Shown: one piece after another, positions 9,251 through 44,076 of the stretch
How the letters are laid out: the number at the start of each line of letters is the position of its first letter
How positions within the stretch are numbered: the stretch's first letter is position 1
Source of the DNA: Desulfocurvibacter africanus subsp. africanus DSM 2603
GTDB lineage: Bacteria > Desulfobacterota > Desulfovibrionia > Desulfovibrionales > Desulfovibrionaceae
Direction: 5' to 3'
Length of the DNA: 64,000 nt
Assembly: GCF_000422545.1 (NCBI RefSeq)
Contig: NZ_KE383873.1
Coordinates: 227,905-291,904 of the forward strand
Translations under genes and position numbers: made by a program
Notes under the pieces: model-generated
Told to the model about the DNA's origin: nothing
Databases searched by the model: none
The model's input: the letters and a program-made list of their open reading frames with translations, nothing else

Positions 9251-9908
9251 ATTGGCCGCCGTGGAATTGGCCGCCGTGGAAGTGGCCGGCCTGCTCTCCA
9301 TCTGGCGCTTCCATTCTGCTTTGCCACGAGCGGCCAGCTCTTGCTGCGCGCGGATTACCCGGAGATATGGGCGCGGGCGCAACCTGGGGCCGTTTCGGAG
9401 GCGGCGTGGCCTGCAGCCAAGCAAGGCTGCTTCAGTGTCGGCGACGGCGTGACTACTTTCCGCGCGCCACTCATCAACGCGGAGTTGTTCGCGCGTTGGA
9501 TCGCGGGCGGGAGGTTGATGTTGGGCGCATACATGGATTGGTGCAGGGACGCCAGAACTTGGCGCATGTCCACGGTATAGAGCATTTTGCTTTTGAAATG
9601 CTCTGCAAGCCATGCGTCGGCATGACTTGCCGCCTCGTAGGCGTAGGCGCAATTCACTTGCGCCGTCAACGCCGGAGCGGGCGTCTTAAAAGCAGTCTGC
9701 TCTAAATAATCCTGGTCACACGCACGTCGTTTATCAAGGCTGGGGCACAGGCAGCACCGCTTACCCAAATGTTGATTATGACGGCAACCAAATGAACGCG
9801 GCACAGACGACGACAGCCTCCCTAACCGGCATTACAATTCAATTTTCTGGATCGATAGAAGCGCGTCCGCGCAACATCGCCTATCCCGTGTGGATCAATT
9901 ACGCATGA
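9251..9908 (+). pseudogene. Phage tail-fibre (collar-type) gene, decayed and split by a repeat element
   Basis: The frame from 9251 reads SGQLLLRADYPEIWARAQ, then EAAWPAAKQGCFSVGDGVTT and FRAP, the phage tail-collar pattern. It meets TAG at 9578, the first base of a type A element. Right after the element the text resumes as NNPGHTHVVYQGWG and ends GSIEARPRNIAYPVWINYA, the usual C-terminus of collar-type fibres (R-P-R-N-x-A). Deleting bases 9578-9704 joins the halves in frame; leaving one TA behind does not. The N-terminus is missing. This is a prophage scrap. Confidence 0.75.
9578..9704 (+). repeat. Type A mobile element, copy 1
   Basis: About 127 bp, from TAGAGCATTTTGCTTTT to AAAAGCAGTCTGCTCTA. 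The ends form an imperfect 17-bp inverted repeat. Inside are three hairpins: GAGCATTTT/AAATGCTC, a GCAAGCCATGC type palindrome (one mismatch in this copy), and GGCGCAA/TTGCGCC. No protein is encoded. Other copies in the same family are at 13086, 14303, 19780, 25875, 27360, 41880, 43842 and 43949. This copy lies inside a tail-fibre gene. Confidence 0.85.
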
Positions 9909-41879: not shown

Positions 41880-42002
41880 GAGCAGAGTGCTTTTAAGACG
41901 CCTGCTCCGGCCTGGGCGCAAGTGAATTGCGCCTGCGCCTACACGGCGGCAAGCCAGGCCGAGGCACGGCTTGCAGAGCATTTTCAAAAGCAAAATGGAC
42001 TA
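41880..42002 (-). repeat. Type A mobile element, copy 7
   Basis: 123 bp, diverged: GAGCAGAGTGCTTTT at the left and AAAAGCAAAATGGACTA at the right. The GCAAGCC palindrome is decayed (GCAAGCCAGGCCGAGGCACGGCTTGC). It lies just past the end of the NCS2 permease gene. Confidence 0.8.
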
Positions 42003-42024
42003 AAGTCCAATGTGCAAAGCCGGC

Positions 42025-43737
42025 TTAAATAACAAAGGATATGAATGAATAGCCTGATATTTCGAGATGTTTTACGTCACGCGCAAACTTTGAAAACAGG
42101 ATCATGCCCAACTGCTTCAGTTCCTCGGGTTTAGCGCTGAAGAAGCTGTCCGGAACGGCAAAGTTGTTTATGTCATCCATCTTATGGCCACAGACAACCT
42201 CGGTGAAATACCTGTCTTCTACTTTGGATATCCGGAAAGTCAGGTACCGTTCCTGATCGTCAGGATCTCCTTCCAGCATATGGCAAAAGACTTCCTCACA
42301 GCAGAGCATCAGCGTGTCGAGTTCTGTTTCTGACAAGAGGAGTTTCTTTTTCCCATGCAACAGCATCTCTTGCAGCTTGGGCAACTCCGACACATCAGGC
42401 TTGAATGTCCCCTGCACGGAACGTTTTGGCATCAGGTAGGCGATTATGCTCAACATGAATGCGGTAAAGCCGCCAAGCGCAACGCTGTTGCCCATAATCG
42501 GCGCCAAGGCTTCAGGCATGATGTTGCCAAAATAAGATCCGCTTTCTGCAACAATCCCCACCGACAGAGACAAGCCGAGAATAAGGCCATGCTGGTTGCT
42601 CAGCTTGTTTATGGTCAACAGCCCGATACCGGCATGAAAAAGCAAGGCTGCAATAACTATCAGCAGGCCGCCCAGGACTGCACCGGGCATATCGAGCATG
42701 AAACCCCCAACCTTGGGCATGAATGCAAGCACCAGCAAGACAGCACCACCACAGGCACCAATACGGCGTGAGGCCACACCGGTGATTTCTATGAGTGGAA
42801 GGTTGTCGCAGTAGATGGAAGGAACTGCCGTACCCAGCAGCCCGCTGGCAACCTTGCTGAGCCCGTCACAGTACAGCCCGCCCTGAACCGCATCATACGA
42901 GACACGCCGGAAATCCCTTTTGGATATTTGCTGTACGAGCATTATGTTGCCGGTGTTCTCAATCATACTGGCCAGCATGGCCATGCTGAAGGCAAATAAA
43001 AGGGGCAAATGGGCAGTGGTGATGTTTGTTTCTATTCCCGGCCAGGCCAGCGGAGGAAGTCCGAACCAGGCTGCGGAGAGGGTGTGTTCAAAGTGCAGAA
43101 GGCCAGCCAAGGCAGCGGCAACATATCCGCATGCGATAGAAATGAAAGGGCTCCAAAGCTTAAGAGCCGTGTTGCCAAACAGCATGCACAGCGTGAGGAC
43201 AACAGCCGTCACGCACCCGACCCACAGTTTGGAAAAGGACATGTCCGGCGTCATGACTTGCGTGCCCGTCCAGATCTCCAAACCTATGGGAACAAGGGAC
43301 ACGGCAACCAGCAGAATGACCACGCCGCCCACTGCCGGAGTAATGATGTGCCGGAAAAAGCGGATAAAGTATGTGTAGAGAAAAATGATCGGCACTGTGA
43401 GCAAGGACATGGTGGCCAGGGTTGCAAAACCGCCCATGCGCACAGCATCTATCGAACAAACCAGAAAGGCGCTGTACGAGCCGACAAAAAGGATAAAGCC
43501 CGCCCCAATGCCGAATCGCCTCCGGCTCTGCAAAAAGGTGAACACGGCAGCAACGAGAATGGTGCCAAATGTGATGAATTGAAGCGTGTCCGCAGGAACA
43601 TTCAGCGTCTTGCCGAGTACATTCGGAATAAAGATAATCCCGTCGAAAATCACGAGTACGTGTGTTATTGCGAGCGCAATGCATGTACCCAGCGAAGGCG
43701 CTTCATTAACATCGTGACCGATTCTGCTGCGTTGCAT
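42025..43737 (-). CDS. NCS2-type purine/pyrimidine permease with a C-terminal RsbW-like domain
   Basis: Protein of 570 residues. Residues 1-435 are an NCS2 (nucleobase:cation symporter-2) transporter with about 12-14 helices: LGTCIALAITHVLVIFDGII, the family signature region SMIENTGNIMLVQQISKRDF, and GLLGTAVPSIYCDN. From about 450 a soluble domain of 110 residues follows: LSETELDTLMLCCEEVFCHM resembles the N-box helix of HATPase_c_2/RsbW proteins, and the chain ends LGMILFSKFARDVKHLEISG YSFISFVI, like their last strand. I take the start at ATG 43737; upstream in-frame residues come from intergenic sequence. GC is visibly lower than in neighbours. Confidence 0.85.
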   Translation of the reverse strand: MQRSRIGHDVNEAPSLGTCIALAITHVLVIFDGIIFIPNVLGKTLNVPADTLQFITFGTILVAAVFTFLQSRRRFGIGAGFILFVGSYSAFLVCSIDAVRMGGFATLATMSLLTVPIIFLYTYFIRFFRHIITPAVGGVVILLVAVSLVPIGLEIWTGTQVMTPDMSFSKLWVGCVTAVVLTLCMLFGNTALKLWSPFISIACGYVAAALAGLLHFEHTLSAAWFGLPPLAWPGIETNITTAHLPLLFAFSMAMLASMIENTGNIMLVQQISKRDFRRVSYDAVQGGLYCDGLSKVASGLLGTAVPSIYCDNLPLIEITGVASRRIGACGGAVLLVLAFMPKVGGFMLDMPGAVLGGLLIVIAALLFHAGIGLLTINKLSNQHGLILGLSLSVGIVAESGSYFGNIMPEALAPIMGNSVALGGFTAFMLSIIAYLMPKRSVQGTFKPDVSELPKLQEMLLHGKKKLLLSETELDTLMLCCEEVFCHMLEGDPDDQERYLTFRISKVEDRYFTEVVCGHKMDDINNFAVPDSFFSAKPEELKQLGMILFSKFARDVKHLEISGYSFISFVI

Positions 43738-43841
43738 GGAAGCGCCCGTTTGTATCAATAGCTTGTATTCATGAAAAAAGCAGAACCTTCCGAGACGCGT
43801 CTGAGGGCTCACCCGCGGAATTCCCGGAAGGAGCAGAAATT

Positions 43842-43950
43842 TAAAGCATTCTGCTTTTGAAAATACACTGCAAGCCCCGCGTAGGCGTAGGCGCAATTCA
43901 CTTGCGCCGTCAACGCCGAAGCGTGCGTTTTTAAAAGCAATCTGCTCTTA
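43842..43950 (+). repeat. Type A mobile element, copy 8
   Basis: 109 bp with an internal deletion in the GCAAGCC palindrome. It shares its terminal TA (43949-43950) with the next copy, so two A elements lie head to tail. Confidence 0.8.
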
Positions 43951-44076
43951 GAGCATTTTGCTTTCGAAAATGCTCTGCAAGCCATGCGTCGGCATGGCTT
44001 GCCGCCGAGTAGGCGCAGGCGCAATTCACTTGCGCCGCGGGCGCCGGAGCAGGCGTCTTAAAAGCAATCTGCTCTA
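43949..44076 (+). repeat. Type A mobile element, copy 9
   Basis: 128 bp, near-consensus, tandem with copy 8. This suggests insertion of one element at the TA at the end of the other. Confidence 0.85.

Follow-up and report, generated by a model that had tools for sequence, protein, structure and literature searches.

An NCS2-type permease carrying a C-terminal domain of predicted RsbW fold in Desulfocurvibacter africanus and its relatives

Introduction

SLC23/NCS2 proteins are described in one paper as having no C-terminal domain, unlike SLC26 proteins with their STAS tail. A gene of Desulfocurvibacter africanus subsp. africanus DSM 2603 raises the question of what such a permease might do with an additional domain. 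The gene lies in a 64,000-nt stretch of contig NZ_KE383873.1 that was analyzed as a whole, hereafter the window; positions are those of the window, and we refer to the gene product as the window protein. An earlier note on this DNA had described a nucleobase permease with a tail resembling RsbW-type HATPase_c_2 anti-sigma kinases and had suggested that the tail could bind nucleotides and gate transport, or else signal transport status. We found no account of an NCS2-HATPase fusion in openly licensed PMC papers, which speaks only weakly for novelty, and the architecture may already be recorded in domain databases. PMC1183210 leaves RsbW-type kinases out of its census.

Results

The gene occupies 42025..43737 on the minus strand as a single open frame, with its ATG at 43737 and its stop codon, counted in these coordinates, ending at 42025. 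It encodes 570 aa, confirming an NCS2 permease with an extra C-terminal domain at a place for which no strand had been given. The membrane domain (residues ~8-435; 42433..43716, minus strand) ends with a helix at 418-435 in the AlphaFold2 model, and 135 residues lie beyond it. Residues 440-570 form the tail domain of about 130 residues (42028..42420, minus strand). The extra domain noted earlier is therefore real and longer than the roughly 110 residues assigned to it; the motif that had been called final is not the end of the protein, which runs on to ...EISGYSFISFVI. The remark that NCS2 proteins usually stop after the last helix holds in 53 unfused rows (50 genes), which extend 3-40 residues past position 435. 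The one other NCS2 gene in the host genome, a 438-aa frame, also has no tail.

Two broken relatives would suit a reading of the fusion as a sequencing artefact or chance open frame: among the ten genomes in which our phylum-wide search found the tail (see below), one has an in-frame TAG in the tail (G078:C8, the contig of L010) and one a split frame (G151:C189). Against this, the window protein and 20 relatives from different genomes across the phylum align end to end in frames free of inner stops, which rules the artefact out and leaves it a probability close to nil.

By homology, the membrane domain belongs to NCS2/SLC23. Residues 20-396 match PF00860 over profile positions 4-382 of 389 (E 5.8e-39; 134.3 bits vs a cut-off of 27). 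Among NCBIfam models, those for xanthine permease PbuX and NCS2 score best, and neither reaches its cut-off with the window protein (TIGR03173 pbuX: 208.7 bits, cut-off 414.15). Foldseek places UapA, UraA and SVCT1 at ranks 1-13 for the membrane part (E 2e-15 to 6e-10), and UapA, UraA and SLC23A1 are the nearest solved structures by sequence as well as by fold. The TM8 Glu, TM9 Asp and TM10 Asn (E356, D388 and N409 of UapA) are present as E260 (42958..42960, minus strand), D291 and N312, while the TM1 Gln (Q85 of UapA) is absent, its site being taken by Thr25 (43663..43665, minus strand). The TM10 NAT motif, [Q/E/P]NxGxxxxT, is likewise unmatched: the window protein reads DNLPLIEIT, with Asp for Q/E/P (UapA Q408) and Pro for Gly (UapA G411). 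As the TM1 Gln is a functional residue, family membership stands on the PF00860 match and the UraA fold.

Fold prediction, proposed in the earlier note as a check, supports an RsbW-like fold for the tail. In an AlphaFold2 model built from a 21-row alignment (whole-protein mean pLDDT 80.7), the tail is ordered strand-helix-helix-strand-strand-loop-helix-strand-strand; predicted alone, it reaches a pLDDT of 90.2 and a pTM of 0.85. The top Foldseek ranks for the tail are UsfX (8ih8, 8jzt), RsbW (6m37) and SpoIIAB (1th8, 1tid), with E 3e-6 to 2e-5. VIA-align gives Z 15.0 and an rmsd of 2.0 over 117 residues for UsfX 8ih8, Z 14.3 for SpoIIAB 1th8 and Z 14.2 for RsbW 6m37; overall, these three families give Z of about 13-15 and rmsd 2.0-2.6 over 111-123 aligned residues. 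SiaB (6kko; Z 12.7) and LvrC (9qih; Z 12.6) come next, and histidine kinases reach at most 8.1.

By sequence, a profile of the tail against the PDB finds RsbW first but weakly (E 0.023, 0.025, 0.097), and Pfam HATPase_c_2 (PF13581) matches 12 of 21 aligned C-domains at a loose threshold of E 10 (best E 1.8e-6). No Pfam model matches the window protein's own tail. Nor does Pfam find a STAS domain in the window protein up to E 1; the tail has the RsbW fold instead.

RsbW-type proteins use an N-box Asn, which binds Mg, and a G1 Asp, which binds adenine, for Mg-ATP. Our alignment set nine fused members beside seven ordinary HATPase_c_2 proteins, plus five others. The ordinary proteins have the Asn in 7/7 and the Asp in 6/7 cases; the window protein has H486 and C516 in these columns, within a degenerate N-box, EEVFCH (481-486; 42280..42297, minus strand), and a degenerate G1 box, CGHKMDD (516-522; 42172..42192, minus strand). 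Among 21 close members, the window protein included, the Asn column holds His (15), Tyr (5) or Arg (1), the G1 column is never Asp and the position next but one after it is never Gly. Five more distant fusions all lack the Asn, and one of them, L035, has the Asp, so that the Asn is absent from 26/26 and the Asp from 25/26 fused proteins. Kept are the N-box Glu (E482; 26/26) and a single G2-box glycine, Gly544 (42106..42108, minus strand; 21/21). A check of the N-box Asn and G-boxes had been proposed, and its outcome goes against the nucleotide-binding gate: with both residues gone in 21/21 members and kept in 7/7 and 6/7 ordinary proteins, we reject nucleotide gating as the main reading.

Eleven tail positions are invariant in 21/21 members (L476, L478, C480, E481, E482, F484, E513, G544, S561, G562, F568); six sit in the N-box helix and one is the G2 Gly. 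Among the 20 relatives, identity to the window protein is 26-66% in the C-domain vs 36-74% in the membrane domain. We call this tail, conserved yet without the Mg-ATP residues of its relatives, a pseudo-ATPase, and the combination of lost ATP-site residues and invariant positions suggests that it is kept for another purpose. Loss of consensus residues is no proof of lost nucleotide binding, which may conceivably take another manner. We considered a metal site made of C480, E482, H486, C516 and H518 but gave it up because the 21 members differ at C516 and H518.

HATPase-like domains also occur near the N-terminus of proteins of 447-492 aa (L088:15533-16876 on G000:C2, L069, L071, L072, L074-L081, L083, L085 and L086). 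The three that we aligned (L088, L069 and L072) lack the N-box Asn and the G1 Asp and have no significant Pfam match past the HATPase-like domain.

To place the membrane domain among its relatives, we compared positions 25, 260 and 314, which align with UapA Q85, E356 and G411. The control of 53 unfused rows comprised 23 of the 29 unfused matches in relatives and the 30 best PF00860 loci, or 50 different genes with three entered twice. Gln-Glu-Gly is found in 53/53 unfused rows and 0/26 fused proteins, counts that are not independent, since the fused proteins are mutually related and the control favors high-scoring, typical permeases and near-copies. The fused triplets are Thr-Glu-Pro (9), Met-Glu-Pro (5), Gln-Gln-Ser (3), Gln-Met-Pro, Gln-Lys-Gly and Glu-Lys-Gly (2 each), and Gln-Lys-Pro, Gln-Gln-Pro and Gln-Glu-Ala (1 each).

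The TM1 Gln or the TM8 Glu is absent in 25/26 fused proteins. In each of the 21 close members one of the two is missing and the other present: the 14 closest to the window protein have the Glu and not the Gln, and the other seven have the Gln and not the Glu. Counting distant members, the Gln is kept in 7/21 close and 3/5 distant proteins, and the Glu is replaced in 11/26. In the exception, L035, both residues are present but the TM10 Asn is replaced by Ala. The D291 and N312 sites fail to separate fused from unfused proteins, because they vary among the unfused rows too (49 Asp and 31 Asn of 53).

Residues Q85, E356, D388 and N409 of UapA are described as irreplaceable; the E356D mutant binds xanthine 18-fold tighter with transport abolished (PMC3405029). 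Changes at Q85 are also described as cryosensitive (PMC3405029), so that they are not always dead. G411V binds without transport, and Pro or Ala at G411 keeps activity (PMC4837479); Pro314 alone therefore says little. Still, the drift in transport residues appears in the fused lineage and is absent from its unfused neighbors.

Across 39 relatives, counting the host genome, 43 NCS2 matches were listed, of which 14 are fusions, in 11 genomes; we read or aligned every one of these 14 tails. A single-sequence search of 395 genomes of the phylum found the tail in 10, again counting the host, and a profile search recovered these 10 with scores of at least 141 bits; another 42 genomes scored no higher than 38.9 bits. 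Both searches miss the tails that have diverged most. Those weaker hits that we read are stand-alone proteins of 137-171 aa and 14 of the 447-492 aa proteins with the domain near the N-terminus; two other weak hits are short scraps of the domain end (G333:C117, G179:C16). A pattern-based contig scan of 84,980 species, which detects close relatives only, gave nine loci from eight MAGs, with titles naming Desulfovibrionaceae or a genus thereof, Desulfovibrionales, Desulfobacteraceae, Deltaproteobacteria or Proteobacteria. A search of plasmids, in which 339 records matched, does not establish a spread outside the phylum. Among the 10 listed, nine stop at residue 432, and one, H1, which extends to 521, lies on a symporter gene whose annotated length is ordinary and which stops short of a distinct DUF5020 gene; three further records have a stated coverage of 80%.

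The most diverged tails form a group of L021, L032, L033 and L034. Pfam HATPase_c_2 matches L034 (E 3.6e-4), L021 barely (0.089) and, among the other distant members, L035 (5.7e-4); it does not match L032 or L033, which were counted as tail-bearing by alignment only.

In a tree of 59 rows, the 26 fused membrane domains fall on one side of a branch (95/86), a split recovered in 93% of 200 bootstrap trees, with long-branch warnings. A single origin of the fusion is not established, as this result is lost when four rows (L036, L020, L107, L108) are removed: the remaining 55 rows call for two changes, and a single origin is seen in 16%. Loss of the TM8 Glu on the 55-row tree takes two changes, forced by well-supported branches, and the losses may number three, since L020 (Lys) was left out of that tree.

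As had been noticed, the gene has a lower GC content than its surroundings (51.9%, GC3 61.6%, vs 60.6% and 65.2% in the 5-kb flanks). Among 22 relatives, L090 alone falls below its surroundings by more than 4 points (47.8 vs 64.7%), so low GC is not a family property. The gene is flanked in inverted orientation by a genome-wide interspersed repeat of 100-130 bp with a palindromic core (41880-42003 and 43841-44074); the arms are 96 nt, 90% complementary. The window holds eight cores, seven of them exact, including further ones at 9646, 13126, 19849, 25915 and 38003, and 100 shuffles gave none; the genome has at least 45 matches, with 40 of 385 candidates scored. Recent acquisition of the gene is plausible.

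Judged by reading, the upstream neighbors within the window resemble a sulfatase and a radical-SAM maturase; Pfam gave no match for the 426-aa gene downstream. Pfam scans of 30 neighbor frames (29 from relatives and one from the window, called by length only and some probably spurious) revealed no widely recurring partner gene, and no partner recurs beside the fusion past one group of close relatives. Five of the nine contig-scan loci (L004, L006, L007, L009, L010) share an upstream frame, an FAD enzyme in L006 with no evident link, and four share a downstream sigma-54 activator frame, identified by Pfam on L006 only. In a single case, L018, the fusion adjoins a Na-dependent nucleoside transporter gene. 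An intact HATPase_c_2 gene is the second frame downstream in L016 and was not found beside its sister L017. PADLOC returned no match.

The search for STAS partners that the earlier note had recommended came back empty for the window: a STAS search of the whole host genome found nine places, none inside it. STAS and RsbW-type genes are present elsewhere in the host genome. One 20-kb region, L088 (G000:C2:38501-58000), contains STAS genes, a HATPase_c_2-SpoIIE fusion and a further HATPase_c_2/STAS pair, and is a possible source of partners in trans. The same region also encodes two histidine kinases (one hybrid), a molybdopterin hydroxylase and a protein of the 447-492 aa type. Separately, in L092:7097-8644 an intact HATPase_c_2 domain (E 1.4e-18) precedes a stretch of about 370 residues related over 317 residues to L088:8800-10197, in which no NCBIfam match was found.

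Discussion

Going beyond what was computed (a conserved, fused tail of RsbW fold that has lost its ATP-site residues, and a membrane part that departs from the residues of unfused permeases), our best explanation, to which we give slightly less than even confidence, is a regulated NCS2 permease or transceptor whose cytoplasmic C-terminus, a pseudo-ATPase of RsbW fold, binds protein partners. The membrane domain would bind a nucleobase, likely a purine, and the window protein probably still moves it. The tail would not hydrolyze ATP and would act as a protein-binding, possibly dimerizing module. Through it, a partner, either STAS or another regulator, may switch transport; alternatively, the conformation of the transporter may alter what the tail binds, coupling nucleobase availability to signaling. 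The alternative in the earlier note, that the tail may signal transport status, comes near to this explanation. In relatives without the TM8 Glu, the membrane part is probably a receptor and not a pump. Both ends of NCS2 proteins are cytoplasmic. As SLC23 proteins are dimers (PMC6497670, PMC4837479), the two tails would sit side by side. Counting against this explanation, the tail evolves somewhat more quickly than the membrane domain, which would also hold for a tail that merely stabilizes.

A broader hypothesis, which we consider doubtful, is that sulfate reducers and their kin hold an NCS2-derived lineage of nucleobase transceptors or receptors. Its elevator transporters would, depending on the branch, have given up either the TM1 Gln or the TM8 Glu, residues that transport requires, and would signal nucleobase binding via an RsbW-fold pseudo-kinase that competes for STAS-type partners, a mirror image of SLC26-STAS.

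The tail could instead serve folding or dimer stability only, with no part in signaling. RsbW-type proteins are dimeric, as SLC23 proteins are; bacterial SulP proteins are said to depend on their STAS domain for stability and function (PMC8256260), and a purely structural tail would agree with the lack of a widely recurring neighbor. We nevertheless hold this to be unlikely: the former N-box helix accounts for six of the 11 invariant positions and the G2 Gly for one, and different proteins, about 450-490 aa long, carry a similarly degenerate domain at their N-terminus. Rather unlikely, too, is that the window protein itself has lost transport and become a nucleobase receptor. The loss of the Gln-Glu-Gly triplet (0/26 fused vs 53/53 unfused) and Thr at the UapA Q85 site point that way, and Ks-Amt5 provides a precedent (PMC5764959), but the window protein keeps E260, D291 and N312, the equivalents of UapA E356, D388 and N409, and Q85 changes can leave cryosensitive transport in UapA (PMC3405029).

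A nucleotide-binding tail that gates transport in response to ATP, ADP or ppGpp seems improbable to us. The RsbW fold, the N-box Glu in 26/26 and the G2 Gly in 21/21 close members would be in keeping with such a gate; the absence of the N-box Asn from 26/26 and of the G1 Asp from 25/26 fused proteins argues against it.

A conserved tail-bearing NCS2 lineage would suggest that partner-switching modules were attached to one transporter fold on more than one occasion, and it places a degenerate RsbW-type domain in a setting other than a stand-alone anti-sigma factor. Because the fused lineage varies at residues needed for transport, as no examined unfused gene does, it also offers a natural series for how an elevator transporter becomes a sensor.

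Compared with UapA, UraA, XanQ and PbuX, the window protein has the same membrane domain, fold and TM8 Glu, TM9 Asp and TM10 Asn, and differs in its extra 130-residue C-terminal domain. Compared with RsbW, SpoIIAB and UsfX, the tail has the same fold, size, N-box Glu and one G2 Gly; it differs in being fused to a permease and in having lost the Mg-binding Asn and adenine-binding Asp. Ks-Amt5, an ammonium sensor kinase whose transporter fold has become a receptor (PMC5764959), likewise has that fold fused to a GHKL-type domain and may illustrate the route from transporter to receptor. Its histidine kinase is active, whereas the domain described here is a degenerate RsbW-type one and the window protein may still transport.

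The closest analogy is to SLC26/SulP, in which a 7+7 transporter fold is also followed by a small cytoplasmic partner-switching domain. SLC26 proteins have a regulatory C-terminal STAS domain on this same fold (PMC6497670), and its deletion compromises transport (PMC8256260). STAS proteins are binding partners of RsbW (PMC8256260). As SLC26 bears the STAS half of the STAS-RsbW pair and the fused NCS2 proteins bear the RsbW half, the two halves of one regulatory pair are found on two branches of one transporter fold.
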